64,000 bases of DNA from Selaginella tamariscina (taxonomy: Eukaryota; Streptophyta; Lycopodiopsida; Selaginellales; Selaginellaceae), in contig PUQB01000910.1 of assembly GCA_003024785.1 (NCBI GenBank), positions 1 through 64,000 on the forward strand, written 5' to 3'. This document shows, one piece after another, positions 2,406 through 50,284 of the stretch; within the stretch, counting starts at the first letter, position 1, and each line of letters starts with the position of its first letter. Below the pieces are notes generated by a model, which worked only from the letters and a program-made list of their open reading frames with translations, was not told the origin of the DNA and did not search any database. The translations under genes were made by a program, and so were the position numbers.

Positions 2406-3266
2406 TTTGTATACACGCTCTTTATATAATACTTTATGCTGTGACCATGTAAGTCAATACATGATAAATTTTTAAAAATAATGCACATGAGTTGTTTTTA
2501 GAGTAACGGGTGCTCGAAAGGATGAAATTCGTTAAATTATATGTCCACGTGCATGAGAGTGTGTGTCGGTTATATATTGTATGTTAGTGTGTGTGTATGG
2601 GTGGGTTATATTATATTGTATTTTAGACTATGATAACTACAACGTAAGTGTAGTTAAATTTTGAGGTGAGGTGAGTTGAAGACATGGAATTTGAAAAAAA
2701 TATTTGAGTTTGTGAGAGCTTGAAATACATAAATGTGCATATTGTATTAACTTTAATATCATGGTTATATATAAAGTAAGTGGTCTAAATAAAAATTAAT
2801 CAAATCCCACTCTGTTAATAATAATATATAGCATTATTAATTTATGCTATTGTAGTCATACACTTGTACTTTACATCATCCCCTCGTCTTGGAAGGATCT
2901 AAGGTTATTAAGGGGCTTAGATTTGGAGGAGGCACCGGTGCATGCATAAGTGGCACAAAACGCCTCAAGCATTAAAGTTACATATGCACAATATTTAGAG
3001 AATCTAGTTGCATGTTGTGTTGAACCATAAACTTGCAACCTTACTTGCTGTAGCACTTGATATGGTCCCTGTCACTGAGCAAGGAGACTCTTGATCAAAC
3101 CACATATTGTAACCTTGAGAAAACAAATGAACACTAGCTCATCTACTTTGTACTCCGTAGGTGGACGATGGTGAGAGTTGTAGCGTCGATGTTATCCCAC
3201 TTATACGACTCAAGTGTTCTACAAACTTTGCATGGACTAATGAAAGATGCTCGTCAAATATGCAAA
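2406..3266. other. Intergenic A+T-rich stretch with a possible old retroelement scrap
   Basis: This holds the 3' flank of the ceramide kinase gene and no convincing gene. The part at about 2870-3260 is less A+T-rich than its surroundings and has short protein-like stretches in shifting frames on the - strand, which may be a worn transposon fragment. I cannot assign it to a family. Confidence 0.4.
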
Positions 3267-3287
3267 GTTGTAACTAAAATGGGCATG
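3267..3287 (+). repeat. Left terminal inverted repeat of the giant element
   Basis: It begins GTTGTAACTAAA and ends GGGCATG. It matches the reverse complement of 18001-18021 at 20 of 21 bases. Just outside, ATGCAAA on the left and the complement of GTGCAT on the right may extend the similarity by a few bases with a gap. Confidence 0.6.
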
Positions 3288-3907
3288 GCTATAGTCCCAT
3301 TTCCTAATAATTAGCAATTTTAGCTATTTAATTAGCATTTTCTAATATTAAAGGAATATTCTTTAGAATATATGTTTGAAAAGAGAATATTCTTTAGAAT
3401 ATTCTATTTTGTATTCTACCCTTTAATAAATTATAGCATTCATTGAACAAAAATTAATAACATTATAAAAGTAGAATGTATTAAATTATATAATATATTG
3501 CCTAATATAACAATTAAGGAAGAGCATAAGAGGTACATTATATAAATATTGATGTTGTTATTAAAATATTAATATTTAAATATAACATTATTAATTAAAA
3601 ATTTGTAGTAGTAATAATATATATATAAAATCCTATAATAATATAGTCAATCTTCCATATCATTTTTTAAATTTATATAGTTAAGTATACAATTTGGTAC
3701 TATTATTAAAGAGTTTATAATAATTATGAATATTAAATATATGATATTTTATAATTTTGTAATTGCTTTAAGCTTCAGAAAACATACATTCCCTTGCAGT
3801 TTTGTTAATCGTGACTTTATCAACGCTTCTTGACATCCACCCATATCGAATGGATTTAACATTTATAAAACATGCTGGGTCTTTTTGATTGGGAGACCAT
3901 GTTTTCT
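3288..3907. other. A+T-rich subterminal region, no gene seen
   Basis: This is a strongly A+T-rich stretch between the left inverted repeat and the 3' end of the DUF7869 gene. It contains short repeats of the form GAATATTCTTTAGAATAT near 3350-3405. I see no coding sequence. Confidence 0.5.
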
Positions 3908-6894
3908 CTAGGCATCCATTATATCTTTCGCTCTCCTTCTCGTGTCGCCTTTTTTGTGGTTTGAACCATGCAACCTTAACAATACTATTTTTGTGATTAC
4001 TTCAGGTGTGTCGATAATTTGACCCATCCAAATAGGCTGATTATATGACGCATCTGGAGTAATGAGAACCATCATTAGTTTTTGAAGATCCTTGCAGCAA
4101 TCAAAGTATGCTTTAGGTTTTTGGTTCCTTTGTCCAACAAAGTGTGGGGTTTGCACTTCCACATCACTACTGGCTTCTATGTCGTCTGTGCTCAGTGATG
4201 TCATTTCAATCTCCTCTCGCCACCTTGTTTTAGGCCAGAAAGGGTGTTGCAATTCTGTACTTGTGACAGTAGGCCCTTCCAACTCTCGAACAACAGTCTC
4301 CCAATAGTTGACCACATGCTTATATAGTTCTGAGTAACCAGTTGCCTTATCAGAATTCTTTGGCATCGATTTTTGAACCCATGCCACATATTTTTTGATG
4401 CCATCAATAATAACCTCTTGTTCCTTGAGCTGGGCACTCAATGGAATAGGGTCTGGTTGTCCTTCTGGGAGAAGTGGCTTTCCATCCTCTCCACTTTTGA
4501 AGAGCATTAAGCCCTCTTTCGGTAACCACTCCTGCTCTGATGGCCGTAACTTGTACTGCATAATAGGTATACCATCTCGTATGGAGAAAAAGAATTGTAG
4601 CGGCACAAGGTGACCAACTAAAGAATCACTCCCTTCTTTTATATACTCCTTGAGAAATTTTTTGAAGTCTGGCACCTCAGTCACAAGCAAAGCACAACTT
4701 TTTTTGGAGATGCAATTTTCAAAAAGATTCATCATATGCGGTAAGGTAAGTGCACTTGTCCTTTTTGTAGAGTTGGAGACCTTGCTGAAGAACGCATCAA
4801 TATCTTCATGAGTGTGACCAACCATAAGGAAACTGAGCGTGATTGTTTCAAACACACCTTTGGCAACAAGCATTGACAAGTATGCTAGCACATATCTAGA
4901 AAATAAAAGTAAGTATGAGCTTGAGAAACCCTTAAGTAAAATGATTTACCTATTTTTGTTCTCGCCTGCACAATTATCCATCTGTAAAAGCAAATGACGA
5001 GGAAGCTTATTTGATGTTGAGGACACATGTACACTATTTGAGCTAGATCCCTCCACTGAACCTGAACTCTCAACAGGGCCATCTGTTTTTTGTGCAGGTT
5101 GCTGACAATGCCTCTCATATTCCCAAGTAGCCTCAAGTGCAGACGTGTTCATGAGAGCATTATGTAAAGGTTGAAGGTGTTGTTTCTTCACTTTGAGATC
5201 ACTGATAGGACTTGTCTGTGAGTGGGCTTCAAGGTTTCTGAAACACATGGCTAACGACCCAATAGTGAAATTGGAGTCGCTAGACCAATGTGGAAGTGAA
5301 AAGTGTCCATATGACTCACAACCGTGTCCATGTGTTAGCACACCTGTTAAAGAAATCGGAAGTTTCATGACATTTCCAAGGCACTTTGGTGTTGCAAAGA
5401 GCTTTGGAATGCTGGTCTTTGAATGATCCATCTTGTCATGGATCAAGCACAGGTACTCTGATGGGCGTGACACAGAAAGCATGCGGTGTGCATAGTACTG
5501 AGACCGACAAGTTTGTTGTGCAATCATGTGGGCCTCCATCTTCCTTTGAATGGTAGTGATCTCCACCAAGGTTTTTGCACAAGCCTCTGCAGCCTTCAAT
5601 GATGTACAAGTGTCACACTTAGAAAAGCTAGAGTGTTTTGCAATCTCCACATCCTTAAAATGAGTATTCCATATGTTGTTGAAGGTACCAGTGCAGATTG
5701 CTTGGAGCCCCATCAAACTGAGGCACTTGTTCACATGTTCACACAGTTTCAATTGAGTGTAGATTGAAGGTAAAACCTTGAGATTTTCCCTGACCCCTGC
5801 ATTTGTGGTTCGGCATTTGTGAGGCATCCTGTCTGCATTTGCTTCCACAAAAGCCTTGAGTATCTCTATGGCTGCCATGATGTGAGAGCGGGTTTTGACC
5901 AAGCCAGTGTTCCCATGAACTGAGGTTCGCGCTCCATCTAGCCACTCATCCCTCCGACGGTAGAACGTGGTCTTTGGGATCCCGTATATACTGTACCAAG
6001 CTTTGAAGCAGATGGCCACCTTATTAAATACCATGGATGTACTCTGATAACCTGTGTCCGAGGCCATTCCATCAATACACCCAGTTAGTGCAGCATATAC
6101 AAACTCATGCCTTTGCTTTTGGGTGAGCATACGAAAGACATGTCTACATTGGGTAATTTCATTCCGGTCTGCCATCTGACAACACTTCTTCTTGCAACAG
6201 TCAATCGTGGAAATGCTCGTAACACTTTCGGAAGATGTAGGATCCATCTTTACCCTCTTGCTGAAACTTGCAGGGGAAGATCTACAACCCATGAATCGCC
6301 TTTTTCTTACAATAGGACCAATGCAAGGAACCTCTTCAAATATGAGTTGTTCTTCCGGGTTGTTATTATTGAAATCCAACCCAGAATATGTTGAACCATC
6401 TTGCCGTCTTAATTCAGATGTTCGCCACCTCACGAGGGATCCAGGATACAATGTGCCATTAGGTGAAACCTCTGTCACAACTACACCCACGAAGTCGGAC
6501 CCTAGTTTCTCTTCTGACACTGCTTCCATTGGATTTATAGCTGTGATGCCTCTTCCGACTTCAATCTCACGAAGAAAGAGAATCACCTCATCCATCACAG
6601 CAGGCAAGCCATCATCTGGTAAACTCGTGCTACTATTTGTTTGTGACTCTGCATATTTGTGTCAGCCTTGACTTCATCCAAATTCCACAATACAGGAGAA
6701 CCCTCCTCAAATTCCATTCCCAGAACCTCAACATGCTTGTAAATGGTGTTCACCCATACGTACACACAAGATCCTTGGGAAATATTGTGACATGATGCAT
6801 TATTATCTCGAACTTCCACAGTTCCAGTGCCAACTATCTCGTTGTTCCGAAGAAGACATACTTTATCTCCAGTATTAAACATATTGTCCTGCAC
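3908..6894 (-). CDS. DUF7869-domain protein with En/Spm-like N-terminal module (candidate transposase)
   Basis: The gene runs leftward. The 5' part (6894 to about 6650) encodes a small module starting MQDNMFNTGDKVCLL, reminiscent of the domain in plant Ptta/En/Spm transposase proteins. Reading then shifts frame near 6640-6665 into a long exon ending at 4950. A 54-bp intron (4896-4949, GTAAAT...TTTCTAG) joins it to the last exon (4895-3908). The join restores a continuous DUF7869 signature: MDNCAGENKNR, then YVLAY, then VGHTHEDIDAFF. Upstream are IHDKMDHSKT and a Cys-containing segment CDTCTSLKAAEAC. The frame change at about 6650 is a 1-bp indel or an unseen small intron. The DUF7869 function is not established to my knowledge; the spaced acidic motifs (HDKMD, MDN, HEDID) would suit a metal-dependent nuclease, which is inference. 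It is transcribed away from the palindrome array. Confidence 0.75.
4896..4949 (-). other. 54-bp spliceosomal intron in the DUF7869 gene
   Basis: On the - strand the donor is G|GTAAAT and the acceptor TTTTCTAG|A. Removing it joins AAT AG to A TAT GTG in frame, so that NKNR runs into YVLAY. The intron is unusually short for a land plant. Confidence 0.8.
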
Positions 6895-7036
6895 ATAAAT
6901 AATTGTATTATTTATGATATCTGTTTATGCAATATTTTTAAGAAATCTGAATTACGGTTACTTAATAATATGCATATGCAATAATACATAATTATGTTTA
7001 GAGATAATATCTCATGTTTGATTAATACAACTGATG

Positions 7037-7805
7037 GGCGGGATTAATCCCGCCACGAATCCCTCCGACGAGGAACGGTCGGCGGGATTAATCCCGCCGC
7101 CGACTCAACCCCTTCGGAGAGAGTCGGCGGGATTAATCCCGCCTTGGACTCCCTCGACAAGGAAGTCGGCGGGATTAATCCCGCCGGACTCCCCCGACAA
7201 GGAAGAGCCGGCGGGATTAATCCCGCGCCTCTCCTCCTCGGGGGAGTCCCGGGATTAATCCCGCCGACTCTCTCCGACGAGGAAGGGAGTCCGGCGGGAT
7301 TAATCCCGCCGACTCATCCTCGCCGGAGAGAGTCGGCGGGATTAATCCCGCCGGACTCCCTTCCTCGTCGGAGGAAGAGGCGGCGGGATTAATCCCGCCG
7401 GCTCTTCCTTGTCGGAGGGAGTCCAAGGCGGGATTAATCCCGCCCACAATTCTTACGACGGGGAATGGGTGGCGGGATTAAACCCGCACATAACTCTCTC
7501 CAAAACTATGATTTCAAAGAGATCTCGGGATAAATCCTGTCCCCAAATCTTTAAAACAGGAAGTGGTGGCGAGATTAATCCCGCCACCCCTTCCCTGCCT
7601 CCTAAAATGGTTGGCGGGATTAATCCCGCCGACAACTCTTTCTAATAAATTCTGGTAACTCTTCATCAGTTGAGAAGGTTATCGACGGGATTAATCCCGC
7701 CACTCTTTTTCAGTGGCGGAGAAGCATTGCCCGGGAGATGGTGGCGGGATTAATCCCGCCACTTCTTCAAAGAGGCGAAAAAGAAATGGCCGGATTAATC
7801 CCGCC
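7037..7805. repeat. Palindrome array 1: about 17 copies of GGCGGGATTAATCCCGCC
   Basis: The unit is an 18-bp perfect palindrome. Clean or nearly clean copies start at 7037, 7081, 7126, 7168, 7210, 7248, 7293, 7335, 7382, 7427, 7471, 7568, 7613, 7684, 7743 and 7788, with a degenerate one near 7527. Start-to-start spacing is mostly 42-45 bp. The G+C-rich spacers are themselves related and partly self-complementary, with variants of GACTCCCTCCGACGAGGAAG in both orientations. The array lies about 140 bp upstream of the start of the DUF7869 gene, in A+T-rich surroundings. The open reading frames that cross it on both strands are by-products of the repeat. Confidence 0.95.
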
Positions 7806-9180
7806 GCCCCGGTTAACCTAGAATATTAAGTTAAAAGGATATTTAAACGTGATAAATCCCTAACGGAATATATTATAATCCTAATGCATTTCTAAACCCC
7901 TAAATTGTAATTTTAAGAGAGAATGTAAGAGAGTGAATCTTAATAAGTATTTTTAAATTTGTTTATAATACTTACTTGTAAACAGCACTGAAGGCGCCGT
8001 GCTTTCCTATAAAGAATAGCACCCAATTTAATCTCGCTCCTGAGATGATCACTATGAAGAAAAAAAGATCTAAAGAGTGAAAAATACAGAAATGAAGAAA
8101 CCCTTGCCGGAGAAAGAACCAGATCTGAATTTGAGTGGGAAATTAAATGCATTTTCAAATTTACATGTCAGACCGACAATACATATGTCAGAAATTCAAA
8201 TTTTTTAAAAAGAACAGAAAATAAAATTTAAGATGAGTTGACACAAATATCCGACACTCTGACATATATACTCTCCAGTTCCAATGAGTATTTTAAAATT
8301 GCATTTAATGTTATTCAAGTGATTCAAGCTGTTTAATATTACGAAATTTTAGACTATATTCTACATTCTTAGTATTCAAGTATATTTATATTATATATAT
8401 ATATAAATATATACTTATACAATAAATAAATTGATATATTATTATGTATCATTTAAAATATATTCATAGTCTGTTTATTATTATTTTCTTAATTACTCGA
8501 GTATTTAGTTTTCATTTCCTAGTATCAATGGGATATTCTTTAATATTTTATTAATATTTGAAGAATATTCTAATATTAAACCTGATTATCATAATTAAAT
8601 TAGTCTTGTTCTTAATTATTGCAGTAATTATTCTACATTTGTATATATTAATGGGATTTTCTCAATTAATTTGTTATTATTTCAAGAATATTCATGTGTT
8701 AAACCTTATTATCAATATTAAATTAATACACACTATGAACATATTTTAAATTATACATAATAATACATCATTTTATCTAATATATAGTCATATATAGTTT
8801 TAATAATATATATATTAATATCATTTCCTTAATTACTTGAGTAATTAATCTTCTTTATATTAATGGGATATTCTTTATTATTTTCTTATTATTCCAAGAA
8901 TATTCCAATATTAAACATGATTATGATAATTAATTTAGTTAATTATTTGAGTACTTAATTTACATTTGTATATATTAATGGGATTTTCTCAATTAATTTC
9001 TTATTATTTCAAGAATATTTCAATGTTAAACCTTTTTATCAATATTAAATTAATATATATTATTAAAATATATGGCTATATATTAGATAAAATATATTAT
9101 TATGTATAATTTAAAATATGTTCCTAGTGTGTTTATTAATTTTATTTTCTTAATTATTCGATGTTTGTTTTGCACACATA
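7806..9180. repeat. A+T-rich core with a ~330-bp tandem duplication
   Basis: No gene is seen. From about 8520 two similar blocks of about 330 bp follow each other (8520-8850 and 8857-9180), each with motifs such as TATTAATGGGATATTCTT and TTAATGGGATTTTCTCAATT. The first part (7806-8280) is unremarkable A+T-rich sequence. Confidence 0.6.
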
Positions 9181-9388
9181 TATAAACACAATCATAAATT
9201 TACACACGCATTACAAGAACTTACAAAAACACATATGCACACACATGCACAACCCTAAACCAAACTGAAGAAATAGTTGCTTCTTTATTGAAAACATCAT
9301 GTTCAACGCATGTATGATATACTCAATCTGTGTATATGTAACACATTGAATTTACATGTGTAATATTTATATTAAGCTTGTTGGGAGC

Positions 9389-9418
9389 AAACCCTAAACC
9401 CTAAACCCTAAACCCTAA
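9389..9418. repeat. Telomere-type tract (CCCTAAA)4
   Basis: Four consecutive copies of the plant-type telomere repeat in CCCTAAA orientation lie inside the element core. Nearby (9500-9990) are repeated segments containing CATACACACCATGCATGATCC. Confidence 0.9.
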
Positions 9419-9857
9419 TATGTAACACAATGAATTTACTCATGTAATATGTATGTATGTCTGTGTGTATACACGTGTGCATGTATATATGTGTACTCTG
9501 TATGTATATGTATATGTGTACTTTCTGTCTTCTCTCATACATACACACCATGCATGATCCATGTTAATATGTACTGTCTCTCTTCTCTCAAACATACACA
9601 CCATGCATGATCTATAATATGTACTCGGTCTCTCTAATATTATGTACTAATATGTATGTATGTCTGTGTGTATAATACACACCATGCATGATCCATAATA
9701 TGTACTGTCTCTCTTCTCTCATATACTATGTATGTATATCTGTGTATAATATGTGTAAGTATATATGTGTACTAATATATGCAATGTGTACAAAAATAAT
9801 TTTCAACACTCTCTCTTCTCTCATACATACACACCATGCATGATCCATCCTAAATCC

Positions 9858-9885
9858 AAAACCCTAAACCCTAAACCCTAAACCC
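9858..9885. repeat. Second telomere-type tract (CCCTAAA)n
   Basis: About four CCCTAAA repeats, same orientation as the tract at 9389. Degenerate TTTAGGG-like pieces also occur at about 10090-10210. Confidence 0.85.
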
Positions 9886-10249
9886 ATGTAATATGTGTGT
9901 ATGTCTGTGTGTATACACGTGTGTATGTATATATTATGTGTATTAATATATGCAATGTGTAGATACACATGAAACTTTAACACTCTCATGGACACACACA
10001 TGTTAAATCCCTGCATGATTTATATTTTTGAGGTGTATGTGATACACCCACCACACGCACGCGCTAATAATATAATGAAAGAATATTCGTTTAGGGCGAA
10101 TCTATATTTTATTCTTTTTAGGGTTTAAGTATATTCTCAGAAGGAATATTCTATTAGGGTTGATATATATATTTAATTCCTTTAGGGTTTAGGTATATTC
10201 TTAGGGTTTCAAGAGGCGGCGGCTGTGAAATCGGCGGCGGCGGCTGTGC

Positions 10250-10510
10250 ACACAGGTGAGATCTGTGTGTGTGTGTGTGTGTATGTATATATGTATAGGA
10301 GTGTGCGTATAATTTTTTTAGTTTTATCTCTCGCACACACACGCACACTCCTGTGTATGTATATGTGTCTGTGTGATCTGTATTTATTTGTTTCGCTCAC
10401 ACACGCATACACACGATATACATATACACATATATATATATACCTATATACATATATACATACATATATTATGTGTACCAGTATCTGTAAATTTTTTTTA
10501 TTGATCTTGC

Positions 10511-10569
<59 letters not shown>

Positions 10570-11330
10570 GTGTACCAGTATCTGTAAATTTTTTTTTATT
10601 GATCTATCTCTCCCACAACACGCGCACTGCTTTACAACACACACACACACACACACAGATATATATATATACAACACTAGTTTATATATATGCTTATATC
10701 ATATGGGTTATATATCTATATACACACATATATATATGTGTGTTTTCTGTATAATTTTATTATTTATTAGTTTTATCTCTCGCACACACACGCACACTCC
10801 TGTGTATGTATATGTGTGTGTGTGTGTTGTTTGTTTATCTGTATGATTTTATTTGTTTCGCTCACACACGCATACACACAATATACATATACACATATAT
10901 ATACCTATATACATATATACATACATACAACACTAGTTTATATATGCTTATATATTCACAGACTCTCTCTCTTCTCTATAGATTATATATCTATATACAC
11001 ACATATATATGTGTGTTATCTGTATAATTTATTTATTTATTAGTTTTATCTTTCGCACACACACGCACACTCCTGTGTATATATATATGTGTGTGTGTGT
11101 TTGTTTATCTGTATGATTTTTTGTTTCGCTCACACGCATACACACGATATACATATACACACATATATATACCTATGTACACACATATATAGGTGTACCA
11201 GTACTGTATAATTTTATTTATTTATCTATCTCTTGCACACACACGTACACTCCTATACATACATACATACATACATATATATACACACACACATATATAT
11301 GTGTGTGTTTTATCTCGCTAAGCCCCTCGA
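10250..11330. repeat. TG/CA and TA microsatellite zone built of ~270-300-bp tandem units
   Basis: Units contain, in order, CACACGCACACTCCTGTGTATG, TTCGCTCACACACGCATACAC and TACAACACTAGTTTATATAT, each recurring at 10330-10450, 10785-10940 and 11060-11160. Small open frames here are microsatellite artefacts and I see no gene. A related zone begins the decayed second element at 18460. Confidence 0.8.
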
Positions 11331-11923
11331 GCGCGGATTAATCCCGCCGCTATATAGTTGGGCCATGGCGGCGGATTAATCCCGCCGCCGAGGCCCCAGG
11401 CATGGGTGAGCGGCGGGATTAATCCCGCCGAGGCCCCTCACGCAGGCTATGGCGGCGGGATTAACCCGCCGCTCTACGACAAACCGAAGAGCGCGGATTA
11501 ATCCCGCCGCCCATGGCCTGCGTGAGGGGCCTCGGCGGCGGGATTAATCCCGCCGCTCATCCATGCCCTGCGCGGAATGCGGCGGGATTTATCTCGCCGG
11601 CAATGGCCTGTGGAAGGTTCTAATGGGCGGGATTAATCCCGCCGGATTCCGCGCAGGCATTTAGAGGGAATGCGGCGGGATTAATCCCGCCGCCGAGGCC
11701 CCTCACGCAGGCCATGGGCGGCGGATTTAATCCCGCCGCTCTTCGGTTTGTCGTAGAGCGGCGGGATTAATCCCGCCGCCCAGGGAATTCACGCAGGACA
11801 TGAACGCCGGGATTAATCCGGCCCCACGCTCATGCCCTTCGCGGAGGGCGGCGGGATTAATCCCGCCGTTCATGTCCTGCGTGAATTCCCTGGGCGGCGG
11901 GATTAATCCCGCCCCACCCATCC
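11331..11923. repeat. Palindrome array 2: about 14 copies with nested inverted spacers
   Basis: The same palindrome as array 1 appears about every 38-48 bp, often extended to GGCGGCGGGATTAATCCCGCCGCC. The spacers are also inverted relative to one another. For example GAGGCCCCTCACGCAGGC at about 11430 reappears as its reverse complement at about 11512-11535, and CTCTACGACAAACCGAAGAG near 11472 reappears inverted near 11737-11757. The array is therefore a palindrome of palindromes. Confidence 0.93.
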
Positions 11924-12862
11924 CTGTTCAAAAATGCCGCAGCCAATATATATGTGTGAGCGCATGATTTACGAGAGGGCGGCGGGATTAGCCGCCGAAC
12001 CTTCATTTACCCGGTGGCGAGATTAATCTCCGAACCTTCATTATCCCATTGGTATGTTGAATCAATCCCGCCTAACTCTGTCTGAGACGGAGAAGGTTTA
12101 CAAAATACCAATGGAGGGAACCGAGAAGGGTGGTGGGATTAATTTCACCATCCCTTACATGGTGGGCGGGATTAATCCCGCCGTGTACGCATGCCCTGCG
12201 CGGAATCGGGCGGGATTTATCCCGCCGCCATTGGCCTGCCTGAAGGGCCTAGGCGGCGGGATTAATCCCGCAAGATTTCGCACAGGGCCTGGGAGGCGGG
12301 ATTCATCCCGCCGAACGCCAATGCCCTGTGCGAAATCGGGCGGGATTTATCCCGCCGCCATTGGCCTGCCTGAAGTGCCTAGGCGCGGAATTAATCCCGC
12401 CCGATTCCGCGCAGGGAATTGGCGTCCGGAGGGATTAATCCCGCCGCATAGGGATCGAGTGAAGGCCCTGGGCGGCGGGATTAATCCCGCCGAGTCTTCA
12501 ATGCCTGTTGGAGAAATGAATCTCGCCACCCTTCCCTTTTTCCTCCATTGGTGAGTTGGACCAATCCCAAACGTTTCTGTCTAAGACGTAGAAGGTTTAC
12601 AACATACCAATGGAGGGGACTGGGAAGGGTGGCGAGATTCATTTAACCATCCCTTACATGGTGGGCGAGATTAATCCCGCCTCCTTTCTGGAGTCACTGA
12701 AGGGGTGTGAGAAATAAATCCTGCCCAGTTCTCTCTGAGACCGAGAAGGGTGGCAAGATTAATTCCGCACTCCCGTTCAAGGCCTCCAGAAAGGTGGCGA
12801 GATTAATCCCGCCCACTCTTTCAGGAGGCATTGAAGGGGTGGCGAGATTAATCCCGCCGCAC
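11924..12862. repeat. Palindrome array 3: about 16 clean and degenerate copies
   Basis: Copies lie at about 11978, 12166, 12210, 12255, 12296, 12339, 12384, 12429, 12473, 12663, 12793 and 12840, with weaker ones between. A segment of about 125 bp at 12056-12180 recurs at 12553-12680, each carrying ATACCAATGGAGGG and ACCATCCCTTACATGGTGGG. The array ends about 300 bp before the first ParB-like exon. Many right-hand copies show GGCGAGATTAAT in place of GGCGGGATTAAT. Confidence 0.9.
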
Positions 12863-12973
12863 CTTCCATGTGAATATATATGTGTATTAGTATATATAAG
12901 TTGCATATCTCATTTTATTTACTTTTATCATCTTATCATAATATTTCGAGTAAAAGCTAGGAATCTATGTAAA

Positions 12974-13058
12974 ACTGTCCAGAGCTCACATTTGTGGTGG
13001 TTCTAAAACGAAATGTTATCTTTCTTTTGCACTAACACAAATGTGAGCTTCGGACAGT
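12974..13058. repeat. Stem-loop with 23-bp arms upstream of the ParB-like gene
   Basis: Arms 12974-12996 (ACTGTCC...CATTTGTG) and 13036-13058 (CACAAATG...GGACAGT) are inverted copies with a few mismatches, separated by about 39 bp. It could be a small inverted-repeat insertion, a hairpin RNA source or a regulatory hairpin of the flanking gene. Confidence 0.7.
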
Positions 13059-13162
13059 TAATTACGTCTACTTCTCTCTGTGTATTATTTTTGTATATTC
13101 GGATTTATACAAGTGTGTGTGCGTTTTTATATAATTTATATTTATAGTGTATTATTTTGCAG

Positions 13163-14767
13163 AAGGACGATTTGATAAAACAAGGAGATCGAGTCATTAT
13201 TAGTATGGAGTCGTCGTCAAATTTCTGGGAAGAATTAAAATAAAATCTGTTATACTCGGATACTTGAACTAATCATTTTTGTATTCAGATGTGGAATTGA
13301 AGGTGACATTAAAGACAAGAGCAGGAGAAGAGATGGGAGGGGGATTTTGGAATCAACTTGGCCATATTTTAAGATAAATGGGAAGCGCATTGGAGCAACC
13401 ATGGTTGCTGTCAAATTAACCTCTGTCACATCTCATGGACAAAAACAATGGAAAGTTGATTCGCTAGTCAAGCACCCGAAAGCAGGCTGCGAACCCAGAT
13501 TGGACGATGCTCGACAGATATGCCTTGTTCCATCCAATGTCACGTTCTCGGATCCAGAGGTCGTCAGTTACAACATTAATCTCGGGTGGTTTTGTCGACT
13601 TGTGGATAATGATGTTCACGTGTTCACTAATGATGTTGACCTTGGAGTTCTTCTTCAACTCAACGAAAGCCCATCTATGGAGGGGATCCATCTGGATGTC
13701 TACTTCGAAGATCTTCAGACTCATCGAGTAGGTGTATTGTCAGGAGATATTGTTTCACAATACAGAAAATCAGCAAGTGGAGCAATCTTCCCTCTTGACA
13801 TTGAAGAAGAACACAGCGACATCATAAGGGAGATTGAGAAGGTGGCTCGGTCTCAGGTTCTCTACAGATCACGTTCAATTTGCTTAGGAAGCTTCGGGAG
13901 CTGGAGGAGTGTGCCGAGAACACTAGAACAGCTGCAGTCGGGGATCACACATGTTGATTCGGATCGCAAAAGAAAATCATCAATCGTTTTGTCAGCTGCA
14001 CCTGTGGCATCTCATGCTGCAATAAGTCACAAGGAAATGATGTTGGATGATAAGATTTATCCTTGTAGGGTTAAATATTGCAGCGTCAACCCAAACTTCA
14101 ATTACAGGCCACTCAACCAGGAACGTGTAGCTGAGCTCATGGAGAAGATGAAGGACGACAATTCTTATACCGTTCCACATAATGCTGTTTTGTGTCCATA
14201 CTATGAAAGAAGGAAGGGTGCTGACAAAGTCTGGATCACAACACCAGAACAACTCATGAAGATTCAGACGGAGAATAAAAGATCTATCAAGTACTACATC
14301 ATTAGTGGCCAGCACACAATAACGGCAGCCCAACGACTTCTCGATGAACACAACAAAGGAACGATGGCAACAAAACTTTCCGAGCATACCCGTGAGAAGC
14401 TGACAAAAAGATCGGCGTTTTTAGCTAAGCCGAATCTCACAATCGAGCAGTACCATAAGTTATCGGCGGAATGGGACGCTGCCGACACCAACCACTACAA
14501 CAGCAAAATATGGGAGAAGTTTAAACACACGCGAGCCGTGTGGGAATCTCTTCAGCGACCACAAAGAGCTACCGCAGGGAATACACAATCTGCGGAATAC
14601 CGGGTAAGCAAATTGTTTGGGCGGGATTTATCTCGCCGGTATATTAATCTGTCTTTTTCCTCAGAGAGTTGAAGAAATTGCAGCAGTTGATTTTGCCCAG
14701 GTGGGCGGGAAGGAAACATCATTTCTGATGATGTTGATTTCTTGCCCCGAATAGGATCTTTGCCAAA
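13163..14767 (+). CDS. ParB/sulfiredoxin-fold-like protein, N-terminal part of a ParB-methylase-like gene
   Basis: A probable first exon after TTTTGCAG at 13162 reads KDDLIKQGDRVIISM, resembling the GDKVCLL start of the DUF7869 gene. The main exon is open from at least 13347 to 14603. Its C-terminal half has RPLNQERVAELMEKMKD and YYIISGQHTITAAQRLL, which match the ParB N-terminal nuclease/CTP-binding fold in layout (a residue-range block, then a hydrophobic-SG-x-R/H-AA box). A 61-bp intron (14604-14664) is followed by RVEEIAAVDFAQ and then a frameshift. Further coding-like sequence (SDDVDFLPRIGSLPNGWG) continues toward 14770. In bacteria and phages this fold binds palindromic parS-like sites or sits beside methylases. 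Here it is directly downstream of palindrome arrays 2 and 3. The start codon is unresolved. Confidence 0.65.
14604..14664 (+). other. 61-bp intron carrying one copy of the array palindrome
   Basis: Donor CGG|GTAAGC and acceptor TTCCTCAG|AGAG fit a spliceosomal intron. Inside, 14620-14637 reads GGCGGGATTTATCTCGCC, differing from the array palindrome at two positions. Confidence 0.75.
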
Positions 14768-14779
14768 TGGTTGGGGATT

Positions 14780-16303
14780 ATGGAATCCTTTTCAAAAGGA
14801 ACACTGAAGAAGAAGCAGACAAGTGAAGGGGAGCCCTCAGAAAAGTCTGCAAAGAAACCCAGTAAGACGCCGAAGGCTAAGTCTGTTCAATCTACAAAGG
14901 ATGTAGACAACGATTTCAAGCTCACATGGTTGAAGCCTTTAAATGGAACAACGATGGAGGAGATGGAAGTCTTGGCTGATTTGGTGATCGATGGCAAACT
15001 ACAAATTAATAACAGCAGCCCAACCTCTCCTTTTCATCTCAAGGCAATGGAGTTGAAGACGGTCAGGCATTTCAAGGAGTGGTTGGGAATACACTGCCAC
15101 AAACTGGGTTGGACCTCGACTTCAACATATGAAGAGGTTAGCAAATATTTGCATGTGACGAACGATGATATGCTTGTCGAATGGGTGAACCAATCGGAAG
15201 ATCTAGGCAAGAATCTATTGCACGCCAACGCCAAAAAGGAGAACATTGGGATGACGCCTTCTCTTATGGCAGTCCTTCAGCAGCGGAGAACCGAATTGAA
15301 CCTTATAAAGGAGGATGCTACGAATCACGACAAGCCCTACAGATGTTTGTTGTTAGATTCGAGACTTTATGGGGTAACATCACTGCTTGTAGGAAACCGT
15401 TTCAATTGTTCGTGATGGATCGGCGGGTGTCAAAAAATCTTTCGACAGATAGGGCACTAGAGGATCTGGTGGAGAAACTTAGCCGTGCAAGCATATACAT
15501 AGAAGGTATTTATTATTGAATTCATGCTTGCGCTCTTCACTGATACCTACTTTTTCAGGTATTTATTTCTTAATTCTTGCTCATGCACCGATACTTTTGC
15601 CTTCGCCTTCGCCAAGAAGAATAGACATCGTTGGACAGGATTTTATATGAACGATGCTAATCCCAAGTGCATTGATACTGTTGTTCACTTGGTTGTTAGG
15701 AATGCGCCAAACAATTTCAAGCTTCCAAATGACTGGCCAGGCATCTGTTTGCACTCCAACGGCCCTGAACCTCCATCCGATACACCGATAGGTATGAGTG
15801 ACGTATTCGGCAATGTACGTTATCCAAACATTACAAGTCAAGCGGCACGGAGCATCGTCAACTTGATCAGGGGTCCTCACAGTGATGCGTGGGTTTTTGA
15901 CTACTGCACTAGGGGGTCCGTCTTGAAGGAGTGTTACCTTCGGCATACATGTGTGTTTGCCGTTGAGAAGGATAAGACCATGGTTGAGGACCTGAACAAG
16001 TGGATAGATTGGGTCTCAACTGAGTACCCCAACGATTCCATAAAGGCGTATTTGAGAAAGTTCCCTCCAGATAAGTGCGATAGCTCTGAAGGTGAATCTG
16101 GTTCAATCTCGGAGTCTGAGAACGAACATCAATCAGATATTAGACCGGAAGTTATCTCGAGGAGTACAGAACATTCGCACACTCCAGGACCCATGGAAAC
16201 ATCAATAGAAGATGCAGAAGATCTTGAACCATCTCACAAGCGGCTTAGACCTTCTTCGCCTCATTCAGAAGGTAATAGCGAAGAAGAATTGATAATGAAT
16301 TGA
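14780..16303 (+). CDS. DNA N6/N4-methylase-like C-terminal part of the ParB-methylase-like gene
   Basis: The frame opens with a Lys/Ser-rich stretch (TLKKKQTSEGEPSEKSAKKP), then a helical segment to about 15340. It shifts to a second frame around KPFQLFVMDRR (about 15395-15425), and again near 15560-15640 into the last open frame ending at 16303. That last block has NVRYPNITSQAARSIVNLI followed by DAWVFDYCTRGSVLKE and VFAVEKDKTMVEDL, which match the HPTQKP-like region and the motif-I loop plus acidic SAM-binding residue of beta-class amino-methyltransferases. In that class the catalytic DPPY box precedes motif I. At the corresponding place I read VMDRRVSKN, so the catalytic box seems lost or mutated. 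The Ser/Glu-rich tail ends EELIMN. It is probably one gene with the ParB-like part upstream, but two genes cannot be excluded. Confidence 0.55.
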
Positions 16304-16507
16304 TAGAGTGATGAATAGTTGTAAATGAGTGTAACATAAGGCATTTTTGTATATTTCTTTTATATTTGTACAGAAAATAAATTCTCAAGGATTAATGAAG
16401 CTTTTAGTTCAAACATGGGTCACACATTAACAAGGTAAATAATATACCTTGATAATTTTAAGGTCAGCTAATTATCATTTTGCAGATGTAATGAAATAAT
16501 TGAGAAC

Positions 16508-17739
16508 ATGGATTTTCAGCATTGCCATGAGGTAAGAGAGGGGTTTGGCGACAATTTCTTGTGCCACATGTCAGAATGACAGAGTTCATGCAGGAAATGG
16601 ATAATAATGCAGCTCAAAACATCGTTACCATGGGGGCCACTTCATCATCATTTTTATTGGCTTCAGTTCCGAAATCAATTTCTTCAGCGCATGCAATATC
16701 TGAATCTTGTAAGGATGATGTACAATTAAATGATGAAGGGATAGGCAACGAAATAGTGGCAACGGATAAATGTGAAAGGGAGCAAACAAGTGATTTGCAA
16801 AGTATTCAAGAGGCAACGCTATCTCATGTTACTCATGGCCATATTGTGTTGTTGGATGTCAATGGTGTTCTGCTTCATCGACAAAGGCCCGAGGATAGAA
16901 AAACAGAAATCAAACAAGGAGATTTCATTCCTTGTCATGGTAAATTTCGATATGATATTATTTTTCGTCCAGGGTTGGATCGTCTCTTTCAAAAGCTTAA
17001 GGAGATGGGTGCGCTTGTGGGGATTTGGTCATGCATGCAGATTCATAACTTAACACCGCTGTTGAGTTTACTTAAGAAACATTGTAGTGTTGCAGAAGAG
17101 GTGATTCGTAAAGATTGGATTTTTGACCAGCGAATGTGTTATAAACCTCTCGAATTTCACAATATAAGAAAGGAAAGCAAGCCATACTTCTTCAAGAATG
17201 AAAGAATAATTGGGACTCATGGGGAGATCAGTCGCTTAAGGATAACGAAGAATGCACATATCTTAGTAGTAGACGACTCTCCTCAGAAGGCTATGCTCAA
17301 CCAAAACATTGCTTGTATTCATCCAATCACTTTCGATCCATATTCTGATACGATATCATGGATGAGCTAGTGAACTACTTGGATACGTGCCTCAGAAAGA
17401 AGAATCTCGAAAATTTTTGTGAGCAGTATCCACCGTATCATACATTTCCTGAAGCTTTTCTTTCTCGTGATATTGAATTTTATAAAATGAAGGATAGCAA
17501 CCGGGCTTTATAATATTATTCTTAAGGAACGTCAGTTTTTAGATGAGCCTTTATGCAGACCTTCTCTTATCACATCTTATGTATTAACAAGGATGGCAAC
17601 TCCCAATTGCATTCGTGAGAGTGTTAAGTGGTGGCAACAACATCAAGATATTGACCAAAATGATTTGATTAATCCGGAGAGTGATGATTTAGACAAAATG
17701 AAAAGATTTCTTTGTATGATAGAAAGAAAGTATTTATAA
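16508..17739 (+). CDS. FCP1/NIF-type HAD phosphatase-like protein (frameshifted)
   Basis: FCP1-homology phosphatases remove phosphate from protein substrates such as the RNA polymerase II tail (family knowledge). The likely start is ATG at 16508 (MDFQ); an extra base near 16537 shifts into the long frame at 16561-17370. Motifs are VLLDVNGVLLHR (motif I with Asn in place of the second Asp, as in plant LDLNG-type members), FRPGLDRLF, GIWSCMQ and ILVVDDSPQKA (motif IV). A shift near 17355 continues as MDELVNYLDTCLRKKNLENF, and another near 17510 leads to a conserved tail ending ERKYL at 17739. The decayed copy at 23264-24478 has the same tail, so these frames were once one protein. It sits about 200 bp after the methylase-like gene, same strand. 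Confidence 0.75.
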
Positions 17740-18000
17740 AAAATTAACATGTTGATAAGAAAATGATTTCATTTGTAATTATGTTTGATAGTATTTCTTC
17801 ATTATTGTAAACTATTTTTAGAATAATATGAATATTCTAAGATATTTTAGGAATATTCCTTACTAAGTAAGGTTATTGAAGGATTAATTAATTAATTAAT
17901 TAATATTTAAGGCTTAATTACATATTAATTAAATGATTAATTAATAATTAAAACTTAAGTATTAATTAGTAATTTATTTTATATTCCCATTTTCACGTAT
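17740..18000. other. A+T-rich right subterminal region
   Basis: TTAATTAA-type simple sequence lies between the phosphatase-like gene and the right inverted repeat. No gene is seen. The same segment follows the decayed copy at 24480-24720. Confidence 0.6.
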
Positions 18001-18021
18001 CATGCCCACTTTAGTTACAAC
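18001..18021 (-). repeat. Right terminal inverted repeat of the giant element
   Basis: It starts CATGCCCACTTTAG and ends TTACAAC; it is the reverse complement of 3267-3287 with one mismatch. A degraded version, CATGCCCATTTTATGC, closes the second copy near 24730. Confidence 0.6.
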
Positions 18022-18459
18022 GTGCATATATGTACTAACGTGACACATTCACATATGTACTATGTGTGTATGTATGTATTGTGTATACGTGAAAATTTAA
18101 CACACTCATAGACACACATATGTTAAACCCATATAATAATATGTACTATGTGTGCATGATTTATATTATTTGTGTGTATGTGATACACCCACACACCTAC
18201 ACACACAAACACAATAAGCTTATTGATAATATAATGAAAGAATATTTATTTAGGTTAATATATATATATTAATTTTTAATGTTTAGGGTATTCTTAGGGT
18301 TCAAGGTGTGGAGTAGAGAGGCGACGAAAGATTTGAGAGCAGCGGCACCACAGATTCATAGATCCACTCTCACAAGAAGGCTAGAAGGCGTGGTGGTGTA
18401 AGAAAGCACGACGATGCAAATAAGGTTTAAAGGCAGTGTAGCAAGGTTAAATCTCTTTC

Positions 18460-19383: not shown

Positions 19384-19516
19384 TGGTGGCGGGATTAATC
19401 CCGCTACCTTTCTAGGAGGCCTAGAAGGAGTGGCCGAATTAATTCGGCCACCTTTTTGGTAGCAGGATTAATCCCGCCACTCCTTGTAAGCCTCCTAGAA
19501 AGGTGGCGGGATTAAT
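19384..19516. repeat. Small palindrome cluster, about 4 copies, in the second element
   Basis: Copies are GGCGGGATTAATCCCGC, GGCCGAATTAATTCGGCC, AGCAGGATTAATCCCGCC and GGCGGGATTAATTCTGCC. The second has compensating changes on both sides (GGCCGAATT/AATTCGGCC), so palindromy is kept although the sequence differs. Confidence 0.85.
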
Positions 19517-19704
19517 TCTGCCACACTCATATATATATACATATACAAATATATATGTGTGTTTATCTGTATAATATAATATATTTATCTATCTATCTCA
19601 CACACACTCTCATGTATATACATATACATATATATGTGTGTATATATACTATATGTATAATTTAATTTATTTTGTATCTCTCGCACAGACACACACACAT
19701 GTAT

Positions 19705-22393: not shown

Positions 22394-22415
22394 GTGGCGG
22401 GATTAATCCCGCCAC
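22394..22415. repeat. Single extended palindrome GTGGCGGG...CCCGCCAC
   Basis: This is one perfect copy of the array palindrome (22396-22413) extended by two bases on each side. It is joined directly to methylase-like sequence. Confidence 0.9.
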
Positions 22416-23062
22416 CCCAATGATGCTGATTTCAGATGTATTGATACGGTTGTTCACTTGGTTATTAGGAATACGCCAAATAATTTAAACTTTCAAATTA
22501 CTGGTCAGGCATTTGTTTTCACTCCAACGGCCTGAACCACCATCTAATACATTGATAACTGAGAGGGACATATTCGACAATGTATGTTATCTAAACATTA
22601 CAAGTCAAGCTGCATGGAGCATTGTCAAATTGATCAGGGGTCCTCACAATGATGCATGAGTTTTTTACTACTGCACTAGGGGATCCGTTTTGGAGTGTTA
22701 CCTTCGAGATACATGTGTGTTTGCCATTGAAAAGGATAAGACCATGGTTGAGACTTGGAACAAGTAGATAAAGAGGTTCTTAACTTACTACCCTAACAAA
22801 CCCATACAGGAATTTTTAGGAAAATTCCCTCCCGAGAAGTGCAATAACTCTGAAGAGGAATTTGGTTCAATGTTGGAGTCTGAGAAATCTTGAACCATAT
22901 ATTATACTAGAAGTTATCTCGAGTACATAACATTCGCTTACTCTATTGACCATGGAAACATCAATAGAAGAAATGGAAAATGTTGAACGATCTTCCAAGC
23001 AGTTAAGACATTCTTCATCTCACTCAAAAGGTAACAGCAAAGAAGCATTGATAATGTGTTGA
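22416..23062 (+). pseudogene. Methylase-like gene remnant (second copy)
   Basis: It parallels 15640-16303: RCIDTVVHLVIRNTPNN matches CIDTVVHLVVRNAPNN, and the TSQAAWSIVKLIRG, CVFAIEKDKTMVE and Ser-rich tail segments are recognisable. Many indels and stops break it. It starts about where the last methylase frame of the first copy starts, so the ParB-like and catalytic-loop parts are gone. Confidence 0.8.
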
Positions 23063-23263
23063 TAGAGTGACAAATAATTATAAATGAGTCTAACATAAGG
23101 CATTTTTATATATTTCGTTTATATTTGTACAGAAAATAAATTATCAAAGATTAAAAAAGCTTTTAGTTCAAAACAAGTCACACATTAACAAAGTAAATAA
23201 TATACCTTGGTAATTATAAGACCAGTTAACTATCATTTTACAGATGTAATAAAACAGTTGAGA

Positions 23264-24478
23264 ACATGGATTTTCAAAAGTGGCATGAGGTAAGAGAGGT
23301 GTGGCAAAAATTTTTTGTGCCACATGTTAGATTGACAGAGTTCATACAGGAAATGGATAATAATGTAACACAAAATATCATTACTATGGGACCACTTCAA
23401 TTTTTGCATCACCATTTCTATTACCTTCAGTTCCTAAATCACTTTTTTCAACGTCTGTAATATATAAATCTTGTAAGGATGATGTACAAGTAAATAATAA
23501 AAGGATCAGTAATAATATAGCATCAAAAGATAAATGTGAAAGGGACAAACAAGTGAGTTGTAAAGCATTCAAGAGGCAACATTGCCCCTTGTTACCCATG
23601 GTCATATTGTGTTGTTGAATGTTAATGGTGTTTTATTTAATTGACAAACAAAGAAAAAGAAGTGATTTCATTTGTTGTCATGGTAAATTTCAATATAATA
23701 TTATTTTTCGTCTGGGGTTGGACCGTCTCTTTCAAAAGCTTAAGGAGATGGGTGCACTTGTGGAAATTTGGTCATGCATGCAATTTCACAACTTGACACC
23801 ACTACTGAATTTGCTTAATAAACATTGTAGTGTTGTAGAAGAGAGATTGGATTTTTGACCAGTGAATATGTTATAAACTCTCGAATTCTACGATGTAAGA
23901 AAAGAAAGTAAGTCATACTTTTCAAGAATGAAAGATTAATTAGGCTTCATTGGGAGATCAATCAGTTAAGGATAATGAAGAATGCACATATCTTAATGGT
24001 AAACGACTCTCTTCAAAAGGCTATGCTTAATCAAAACATTGCTTATATCCATCCAATCACTTTCTACCCATATTCTAATATTAATACCATGGATGAGTTT
24101 GGATATGTGCCTCAGAAAGAAGAATATTGAAAACTTTTGTGAGCAATATTTACCATATAAAACATACCATAACGCTTTTATTTTCTTATGATTTTGAATT
24201 TTATAAATTAAAGGAGAACAATCGGACGCTTTACAAATTATTATTAAGGAACGTCATTTTTTAGATAAGCCTTTATGCACTCCTCTTCTTATCACAGCTT
24301 ATGTATTAACAATGATGGCAACTCCTAATTGCATTCGTGAGAGTGTTAGGTAGTGGCAACAATATAAAAATATTGACCAAAATGATTTGATTAATCCGAG
24401 AGTGATGACTTAAATAAAAATGAGGAGATTTCTTTATATGGTTAAGACGAAAGTAATTATAAAAAGATTAACATGTTG
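23264..24478 (+). pseudogene. FCP1-type phosphatase-like remnant (second copy)
   Basis: The 5' end is better preserved than in the first copy: MDFQKWHEVREVWQKFFVPH is open without the shift seen at 16537. FRLGLDRLFQKLKEMGALVE, WSCMQFHNLTPLL and the tail MATPNCIRESV are visible, interrupted by stops and shifts. Gene order and spacing after the methylase remnant match the first copy. Confidence 0.8.
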
Positions 24479-24859
24479 ATAAGGAAATGATTTCATTTGT
24501 AATTATGTTGATAGTATTTTTAAATTATTGTAAAATATTTTTATAATGCAGAATAATACGAATATTTTAAGATATTTTAGGAATATTCCTTACTAAGTAA
24601 GGTTAATGAAGAATTAATTTGTTAATTAATTAATATTAAAACTTAATTATATATTAATTAAATAATTAATCAACAGTTAAAACTTAAGTATTAATTAGCA
24701 ATTTATTTTATATTCCCATTTTTATGTATCATGCCCATTTTATGCATACCATGTAAATATTTATATAAAAAAGTACAAAGTGGTAATTAGGGAAAAAAGA
24801 ATGTGTAACCACATCACAATTTAAGCCATATTTCATGTGTGTGAATTAAAATCACCTTC

Positions 24860-48118: not shown

Positions 48119-48123
48119 GAGTG

Positions 48124-48994
48124 ATGGCAGAGTCTCAAGCTCTCCTTCCAAAGGACACTGGGCAAATGGCGGCAGTGCAGCAGATTGTTGTCATGGATGC
48201 GCCACCACCCAAATTCACCGGTCAAGAGTTTTACCTTTGGCGGGTGAAGATGGAACTCTACCTCGAAGACTTGGAGCTTTGGGAGATCGTGTCTGGCATT
48301 GAAGCCAAGCCCACAACTCCTGCTATCGACGTAGCCGCATGGGAGAAGAAGGACCGCAAAGCCAAGGGTAAATTATTCAAAGCCCTCGAGCAACGCGAGT
48401 TCCGGACAGTGGTGCGCTGTAAAAGTGCTGCCGAAGTCTGGATATCCCTCAAGGCAACGTACGAGGCTCCACGAGCAAGCAACCGCATTTATCAAGCGAA
48501 AGCTGTTCAACACCGTTATGACTGAGGGAGACTCTCTCCTTGATCATGTCGGCAAGGTAAGAGCCATATTGGATGCCCTCCAAGGAGTGGGAGCTACTAT
48601 GGACGAGGCTGAGGAGTGCGAGTACATCCTGTGCTCACTTCCCCCCTCGTACGACTCACTCGTCTCCACCCTAGGTTGCCAAACTACTCCACTCAAGTTG
48701 GCTGAGGTCCAAGCGGCATTGCAAGACCTTGATACCCGGCGAAAGAACACGGAGCATCAGCCAAGCACCGCCCTCTTCACGGCAGTGCGCAAGGGGAAAC
48801 AGAATGAGGACACCAGCTCATCTAGCTCACCAAGGCGAAAATTCAAGCCTAAGGTGAAGTGTTCTCACTGCAAGAAGAAAGGTCATGAGGAAACAAAGTG
48901 CTGGGTTAAACACCCGGAACTCAAACCTGGCCCTGATGATGAGCGTGGCAAGGCTCTACTCGTTGGTGATGTAGCAATGTACATGGTCCATACA
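48124..48994 (+). pseudogene. copia gag region (one frameshift)
   Basis: ATG at 48124 opens the capsid-like part (PPKFTGQEFYLWRVKMELYL). A shift at about 48490 continues in the next frame through a UBN2-type gag segment to a CCHC zinc knuckle, CSHCKKKGHEETKC, at about 48870-48910. It would package the element's RNA into virus-like particles. Confidence 0.88.
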
Positions 48995-48995
48995 T

Positions 48996-50280
48996 TTGTG
49001 GGGTGAAGAACCCCACACCTTCTATGTGGACTCAGCAGCAACACACAACATTACAAACACCCGCAACTGGTACGTGATCTTCGAAGCAACTTCACCTAGT
49101 CAACATGTCCTAGTGGGAGATGGACGCCCTCTTCCTATACTAGGATCTGGGACGATTCGTCTTACCTTGCTGAGTGGACACCAGGTGCAGATCAAGGATG
49201 TGCTCTACGTCCCTGAACTTCAGGCCAACTTGTTAGCACTTGGGCGGCTTTGCGATGCTGGCTACACCTTTCATGGTGATGGCACTCGCATCTCCTTCAC
49301 ACCCCAGACAGGACGTGCACCAGCACTGCATGCACATCGTGATGGCAGTGGGAGCTTGTATAAGCTAGAGATGGAGCTCGACCCAACTTCCCCCAGACCG
49401 CAAGCTCTAGTTACTCAAGGTCAAACTGAGGAGCTAGAGTTGTGGCACCAACGTTTTGGCCATGCTGCGACCTCACGGATTGCTCAGTTGGTACGAGAAC
49501 AGATGGTAGAAGGACTAAAAATTCCCCCCACTGGGGAACTGTCGTTTTGTAGGGGATGTCAGCTCGGAAAGATGCCTCGCCAAGCTTTTCCTCGCAGCGG
49601 AGCAACCAGGGCGACTAGAGTGTTTGAGCTCGTGCACACAGACCTCTGTGGGCCGATGCAAACACAGTCCTACGCTGGCGCTCGCTACTTCATGACCTTT
49701 GTGGACGACTTTAGTCGCTACTGTACCGTGTATTTCCTTCGAGAAAAATCACAAGCCCTGGATTACATGCGGTTGTACTACACATGGGTAGCACCCAGAC
49801 TGGTCAGATGCTGAGACGTCTACGCTCCGATGGTGGTGGCGAGTACACCTCCAATGCCTTTTATCAATTCTGCAAGTCAGCTGGCATTGCACGGGAGCTA
49901 ACAACAACCAACTCACCACAACAAAATGGCGTGGCAGAGAGGAAGAATAGGACGTTGATGGAGAGTGCACGGAGCATGCTCCAGACAAGCCAACTCCCAC
50001 AAATGTTCTGGGCAGAAGCAGTACACACCGCCAACTTCCTGCAAAATCGCCTACCAACCTCAGCATTGAAAGGGATGACGCCACATGAAGCTTGGACTGG
50101 TAGGAAGCCATATGTAGCAGGACTGAAGATCTTTGGCTGTGAGGCCTATGTCACGCCATTGATGACTCGTCACTCAAAAAGCTTGATGCCAGGAGCATCC
50201 GATGTCGTTTTTTGGGCTACTGCACAGATAAGAAAGCCTACAAGCTATATGATCCTATTGCCAGGAAACCGATTTTGAGC
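48996..50280 (+). pseudogene. copia protease and integrase region (frameshifted)
   Basis: The aspartic protease site is in DSAATHNIT near the start. The GAG-pre-integrase segment has LWHQRFGH and the CRGCQLGK finger. The integrase core shows HTDLCGP, FVDDFSRY and NGVAERKNR, the three acidic positions of the catalytic triad. Frames change near 49780 and again near 50210, so no single product is read. Confidence 0.9.
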
Positions 50281-50284
50281 AGGG

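Follow-up and report, generated by a model that had tools for sequence, protein, structure and literature searches.

A DNA transposon family of Selaginella tamariscina with arrays of an 18-bp palindrome beside its two divergent genes

Introduction

The VANDAL transposons of Arabidopsis encode anti-silencing proteins, the VANCs, according to the consulted sections of two papers in PubMed Central (PMC; PMC5735166, PMC10398659). The motifs of these proteins are described in the same sections as tandem repeats in noncoding parts of the elements, differing between VANC proteins (PMC5735166). In En/Spm (CACTA) elements, a second DNA-binding protein, TnpA, recognizes repeated motifs that vary between subfamilies, and the repeats of soybean Tgmt* can form stem-loops (consulted sections of PMC2613891). 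Here, we analyze a DNA transposon family of the lycophyte Selaginella tamariscina, starting from a copy in a window of 64,000 nucleotides (bases 1-64000 of contig PUQB01000910.1, assembly GCA_003024785.1). The element carries two arrays of one 18-bp palindrome, each upstream of one of two divergent genes, which we call gene A and gene B.

In bacterial ParB/parS systems, clustered palindromes lie near the gene of their reader. An earlier note on this window, made from its letters, proposed a parS-like system in which an element encodes the reader, and perhaps the modifier, of its own repeated site. Gene B was read there as a ParB-like domain linked to a methylase-like one.

Results

Structure of the element and its copies

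The element belongs to a DNA transposon family with inverted ends. Its features in the window are the following:

3267..18021, whole element, about 14.8 kb, with ends shared, apart from a few changes, by other copies; outer limit approximate
3267..3287, plus strand, left terminal inverted repeat, GTTGTAACTAAAATGGGCATG
3354..3404, three left subterminal GAATATTC palindromes, candidate transposase sites
3908..4891, minus strand, gene A, second exon, C-terminal part of DUF7869 (Pfam PF25273) with the motif VGHTHEDID
4949..6607, minus strand, gene A, main exon, with the first and second invariant acidic residues
7037..7805, array 1, 16 palindrome sites, upstream of gene A
11331..12858, array 2, 24 palindrome sites, upstream of gene B, with nested fold-backs
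13292..14603, plus strand, gene B, long exon, earlier labelled ParB-like
14620..14637, single palindrome in the gene B intron 14604-14662
14663..15510, plus strand, gene B, middle exon, frame broken in the window copy and continuous in locus L115
15557..16303, plus strand, gene B, last exon, earlier labelled methylase-like, no family match
16561..17735, plus strand, gene C, NIF/FCP1-like phosphatase-fold, frame broken near 17350 in the window copy
17830..17858, two right subterminal GAATATTC palindromes
18001..18021, minus strand, right terminal inverted repeat, reads GTTGTAACTAAAGTGGGCATG inward

The inverted repeat at 3267 and 18021 is real and recurs in seven other copies with both ends, all on one contig (C1), with lengths of 11.8-14.8 kb. 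Three of them (R1, R2, and R6) have 21-bp ends identical to those of the window on both sides; in the other four (R3, R4a, R4b, and R5), one end or both depart from the window by one or two changes. The order is the same in six copies: left end, gene A on the minus strand, an array, 3.0-3.6 kb free of sites, an array, gene B, gene C, and right end. An internal deletion in R2, the seventh copy, has removed array 2 and the beginning of gene B. R4a and R4b, two neighbouring copies at L102-L106 (C1:898973-931159), have identical flanks. Hence, they probably come from one duplicated insertion and are not independent copies. On other contigs, we picked by eye among the listed exons eight divergent pairs of genes A and B, 6.65-7.25 kb apart (6.74 kb in the window).

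The ends read GTTGTAACTAAA, and the CACTA ends of En/Spm are not present. The tetranucleotide TGCA borders the window element on both sides (3261-3264 and 18023-18026) and is found outside the left end in all seven other copies and outside the right end in six. We ruled out GTTGTAAC/GTTACAAC as a target duplication, since it is present at both ends of other copies and is thus part of the element ends. The palindrome GAATATTC occurs 15 times in the window, against 2.2 expected, with ten occurrences inside the element. At matching places by the left end, two or three are found in all seven other copies; by the right end all seven have two, which lie about 45 bp nearer the end in R4a and R4b. Further copies of GAATATTC lie within the element at 8563-8905 and 10081-10151.

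The palindrome is abundant and linked to genes A and B

The palindrome of the arrays is GGCGGGATTAATCCCGCC, with two inverted CCCGCC cores per site. We searched the genome (300.7 Mb in 1391 contigs) and found 27,128 exact copies, against one copy of a control palindrome with an ATATAT centre (two central bases changed) and none of the reversed control. A one-base variant with a TTTA centre has 777 and 795 copies on the two strands. Linkage was assessed on the first 100 exact sites listed, which all lie on C1 (one of the 1391 contigs) and whose regions were all fetched. Sites with gaps below 1 kb were grouped into clusters, and a match to gene A or B within 1 kb was counted as a neighbour. Such a neighbour was found for 16 of the 17 clusters, and the one cluster without it consists of a lone site 1.3 kb beyond a right end. 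Hence, the linkage check proposed in the earlier note came out in favour of its general idea, an element with both a repeated site and its reader: arrays standing apart from genes A and B did not turn up among these clusters of C1. Among 12 further gene B loci, eight have nine or more upstream sites, L117 has four, and three have none. We also found the palindrome in one viral contig, where by our estimate about one occurrence is expected by chance in such a collection.

The window holds 45 sites with at most three mismatches, and none are expected (100 shuffles). Two blocks, each placed directly before one of the divergent genes as claimed earlier, comprise 40 of the sites. Perfect copies number only 20 among the 45, and the blocks contain 19 of these, so that "about 45 perfect copies in two blocks" was an overstatement. 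The site in the gene B intron is at the same place in six of the seven other copies, R2 lacking the region. The last four sites lie beyond the element, at 19388, 19461, 19505, and 22396.

The 18 bp are under constraint. Information content is 1.4-2.0 bits within them and 0.03-0.48 outside, the inner values being inflated by the selection of sites by similarity. Related spacer pairs diverge by 0.236 and 0.230, and the sites that flank them by 0.037 and 0.113 (23 and 36 pairs). Most neighbouring sites of the window are spaced by 38-48 bp. In the fetched loci of the genome, 93 spacings are below 140 bp: 60 of 36-51 bp, 22 of 73-90, ten of 127-136, and one of 31. Around single sites, palindromic symmetry in the flanks does not exceed chance, save at a few distances. 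The overall CpG observed/expected ratios of the arrays are 1.12 and 1.04, and the excess stems from the sites themselves. Some sites are changed symmetrically in both arms, e.g., GGCGAGATTAATCTCGCC and GGCCGAATTAATTCGGCC, a pattern favoured by a dimeric binder or a folded strand. Such symmetric double changes occur in L118 (three, at 462, 720, and 900), L121 (two, at 745 and 1670), L122 (1254), and L124 (1443).

Gene A is likely a DDE transposase

The joined protein of gene A matches PF25273 with an expectation value (E) of 5.8e-47 and 160.2 bits, for a curated cut-off of 26 bits. It is thus a clear member of DUF7869, a family listed as of unknown function. We found 124 relatives, the family being present in mosses, liverworts, and invertebrates, and none among 196 stretches of viral contigs. 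The acidic residues D192, D353, and D393/D395 are among the columns invariant across 39 sequences and are present in gene A; they would include the three catalytic residues. The protein also has the RNase H-like core expected of DDE/RNase H-like transposases. By its fold and invariant acidic residues, the product of gene A is therefore likely a DDE transposase. DUF7869, a widespread eukaryotic family, thereby gains a probable job. We found no paper on it in the open-licence PMC literature.

The element is common and has spread recently. Among 6,957 first-look candidates for the gene A exon, the best 78 were scored (window included): they are 99-100% identical and lack stops. As only the best among thousands of candidates were scored for identity, for gene A as for gene B, the scored exons represent the youngest members of a larger family, and many fetched loci are decayed. 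In the window copy, genes A, B, and C all appear to be frameshifted, and open frames are longer in other copies; the window copy is thus probably non-autonomous today.

Gene B is under purifying selection

We scored 100 copies of the long exon of gene B, the window included, as the best of 6,514 first-look candidates. They are 89-100% identical, 92 of them have no stops, and more than half are open over 477-479 codons. The ratio of nonsynonymous to synonymous substitution rates (dN/dS) is 0.32-0.55 against eight other copies, and saturated against the ninth (L117). Hence, gene B is under purifying selection and encodes a protein under constraint, though some copies decay. The motif YYIISGQHTITAAQRLL is kept across most gene B lineages, and is not in the broken L117 row. 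We found no relative of gene B outside this genome in searches of proteins, the PDB, phages, viral contigs, and prokaryotes.

The centre of the site differs in a divergent gene B lineage

Among the gene B loci, L117 diverges most (33-51% identity). Upstream of it are 11 sites (at most six mismatches), ten with TTTA or TAAA at the centre and none with TTAA. In a decayed locus related to it (C1:1817702-1819581; L108, L113), three of three sites have TTTA or TAAA (at most seven mismatches). Together, the two loci, which represent old lineages of this element, have TTAA in none of 14 sites and TTTA/TAAA in 13, and their arrays persist. In the window, the centre is TTAA in 44 of 49 sites (at most four mismatches); at this same limit, the two divergent loci have TTAA in none of eight. 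Six intermediate loci have a majority of TTAA, from 8 of 12 to 20 of 21 sites. The change of centre in all 14 sites of the divergent lineage suggests that reader and site have coevolved. As with VANC motifs, arrays thus differ between protein lineages, here on few loci. With thousands of first-look gene candidates and around 27,000 exact sites, the family offers a high-copy natural system for measuring the coevolution of a selfish protein and its site.

Discussion

Gene B as a candidate reader of the arrays

We give about an even chance to a reading in which the product of gene B is a dimeric palindrome binder that controls promoters, most likely against silencing. The transposase of gene A would act on the inverted ends and might use the subterminal GAATATTC palindromes as well. 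The two arrays would be clustered operators for a dimeric binder of the 18-bp palindrome, most likely the element's own gene B product. Loaded on the arrays before genes A and B, this protein would control the element's own promoters, and would most probably keep them open against host silencing, in the manner of VANC proteins in VANDAL elements and, presumably, of maize TnpA in Spm. Arrays placed at both promoters, sites kept while spacers drift, and a site altered in one divergent gene B lineage form the VANDAL/VANC pattern. Thus, the idea of an element carrying its own repeated site and the reader of that site fits the linkage and the shifted site of the divergent lineage, whereas the ParB, methylase, and parS form that the earlier note gave it is not supported. 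If gene B does counteract silencing, the VANC strategy would have appeared in another genome by means of a seemingly unrelated protein.

Several points weigh against this reading. Gene B has no recognizable DNA-binding domain in searches with family profiles, and its role as binder, the dimeric binding, and the anti-silencing outcome are all inferred. Three of the 12 further gene B loci have no upstream site; in two of them the beginning of the gene is truncated, and the third adjoins a fragment of gene A. The CpG observed/expected ratio of the spacers (0.63) is like that of the rest of the window (0.68), so there is no sign of protection from methylation. The change of centre (Fisher p 3.6e-10) comes from two loci only, whose sites are not independent within an array, and was scored with unequal mismatch limits (six for L117, seven for the second locus, and four for the window). 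It could also track gene A instead of gene B, or descend by concerted evolution.

The resemblance to VANDAL elements lies in an element-encoded second protein and a short, tandemly repeated noncoding motif that depends on the protein lineage (consulted sections of PMC5735166). The VANC21 motif, YAGTATTAY, is in contrast short and non-palindromic in that description (PMC5735166). Also unlike VANDAL, the transposase here is of the DUF7869 family and gene B has no Pfam match; the likeness to VANC is drawn from descriptions. En/Spm appears less close by analogy: it shares a transposase, a second protein (here a candidate DNA binder), and repeated motifs. In Spm, TnpA probably has a role in demethylation. 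The motifs of TnpA are subterminal in the consulted sections of PMC2613891, whereas the arrays here are internal and beside promoters, and the ends are not CACTA.

Other readers of the arrays

Could the transposase of gene A itself bind the arrays, either as internal enhancer-like transposition sites or as operators for its own regulation? We consider this unlikely, and yet the strongest of the alternatives. An array lies directly upstream of gene A in all seven copies with both ends, and R2, without the start of gene B, retains its array beside gene A. But the first site is 3.73-3.77 kb from the left end in all seven copies, about 4.4-5.2 kb separate array 2 from the right end in the six copies that have this array, and it is a different palindrome, GAATATTC, that sits by both ends.

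A bolder version, in which a eukaryotic transposon has evolved a nucleoprotein system of reader and arrays for itself, is rather unlikely. A protein of new DNA-binding fold, or a ParB-like one undetectable by sequence, would load on the palindromes and spread a silencing-free domain, while the arrays would renew themselves by fold-back amplification seeded by the palindromes.

The arrays might instead act as folded nucleic acid, i.e., double-stranded RNA or cruciforms that are a source of silencing RNA or rearrangement, the palindromes being a by-product of fold-back amplification. The folding energies of parts of the two arrays are -483.5 and -384.8 kcal/mol (z of -27.5 and -24.9 against shuffles), lower than those of controls in which sites are kept and spacers shuffled (means of -342.5 and -283.5 kcal/mol). 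An excess is also found in L118, L121, and L128, and a weaker one in L117 (-239 against -201, standard deviation 6.9). Array 2 has symmetry axes near 11614, 11836, and 12305, and some spacers are perfect reverse complements, which together with the symmetric double changes in L118, L121, L122, and L124 agrees with this scenario. Against it, 28 of the 29 variant sites of the window are uncompensated in the other arm, and in L117 the sites persist although none of six spacer pairs is an inverted copy at 70%. We thus find a folded function quite unlikely as the explanation of the sites, a hairpin RNA role of the fold-backs being possible. The simplest view of the spacer inversions is fold-back amplification or arm-to-arm conversion, with the palindrome easing inversion.

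The core of the E2F site is CCCGCC. A host factor, e.g., an E2F-like one, that reads the sites and makes the element fire in S phase would account for the two inverted cores per palindrome and for their position near promoters. It would not account for central bases constrained as strongly as the GC arms, for the count of the ATATAT-centre palindrome (1 versus 27,128), or for a centre that changes with the gene B lineage. We regard such a factor as improbable.

A true ParB/parS-like system, in which gene B would load at the palindrome and spread for segregation or insulation, is very improbable: the grouping of the palindromes close to the gene that presumably encodes their reader, weak profile scores, and YYIISGQHTITAAQ, which we take to stand in gene B at the position of the ParB GERR/GHR box, speak for it, whereas gene B has no ParB family match and the dozens of sites form two arrays in an integrated transposon. 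We infer that a transposon integrated on many contigs would have no obvious use for partition.

The searches behind this judgement were broad. No ParB match to gene B was found in Pfam, NCBIfam, or PHROGs at E up to 10, where weak unrelated matches were the only ones, and the ParB_N family (PF02195) has no match in the genome, the same search being positive in 10 of 14 control genomes. A sequence search of the PDB gave no ParB match. In 5.8 billion proteins, there was no ParB among the 7,993 candidates sharing most words with gene B, and none of 68 candidates reached E 10 against it. Phage genomes gave three matches, at E 4-9 only and thus no support, and no ParB-type relative was found in viral and prokaryote contigs. 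A ParB profile of 31 segments (from the 31 of 80 loci that passed a motif filter) placed the gene B region below six of 200 shuffles, and the matches listed did not include the whole exon. With 80 segments, six of 500 shuffles scored as high as the region and 14 of 500 as high as the whole exon. The hhalign score of gene B against ParB was 18.5, as high as in one of 60 column shuffles (16 rows, some broken). These scores are a weak hint and no support. The structure model of gene B, made from a single sequence, has a mean predicted local distance difference test score (pLDDT) of 43; it is unusable, and a fold search with it meaningless. The methylase label fared no better. Pfam, NCBIfam, and PHROGs gave no credible match to this region. 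With a profile of two sequences only, a weak test, its score is reached by 321 of 357 listed shuffles out of 500. We found no paper on ParB with a transposon in moss or Physcomitr* in the open-licence PMC literature.

Gene C and other features of the window

Gene C travels with the element. It matches Pfam PF03031 with E 2.3e-10 in the window and 6.4e-12 in another copy. The usual motif of NIF/FCP1-like proteins is DxDxT, and gene C has DVNGV at this position. Its differences from the second copy of the window are 45, 21, and 47 by codon position, fewest at the second. It is possibly a captured host gene.

Two features outside the element are related to it:

19388..19522, short array of three sites, with a symmetric variant at 19432
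22396..24742, plus strand, second copy, decayed and internally deleted, in which a single palindrome is joined to the final portion of gene B, followed by gene C and the right end

The short array is probably part of an older related copy. The second copy is 82% identical to the element (22419-24742 against 15650-18013), the homology stopping at 18013. Its differences are mostly C-to-T and G-to-A (174, versus 55 in the opposite direction).

Scans of the window for RNA families and tRNAs found none, and a scan for bacterial promoters and terminators is uninformative for plant DNA. The string GGATTAATCCCGCC was not found in the open-licence PMC literature. Between the arrays, the plant-type telomere repeat AAACCCT forms short runs at 9389-9418 and 9849-9885. 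Like these repeats, the open frames of F-box, PPR, and Copia-like type that we read in the window point to a land plant. Large duplicated blocks lie within 31618-64000, with up to 98.5% identity over 4.9 kb, as does a Copia-like element at 48121-52288.

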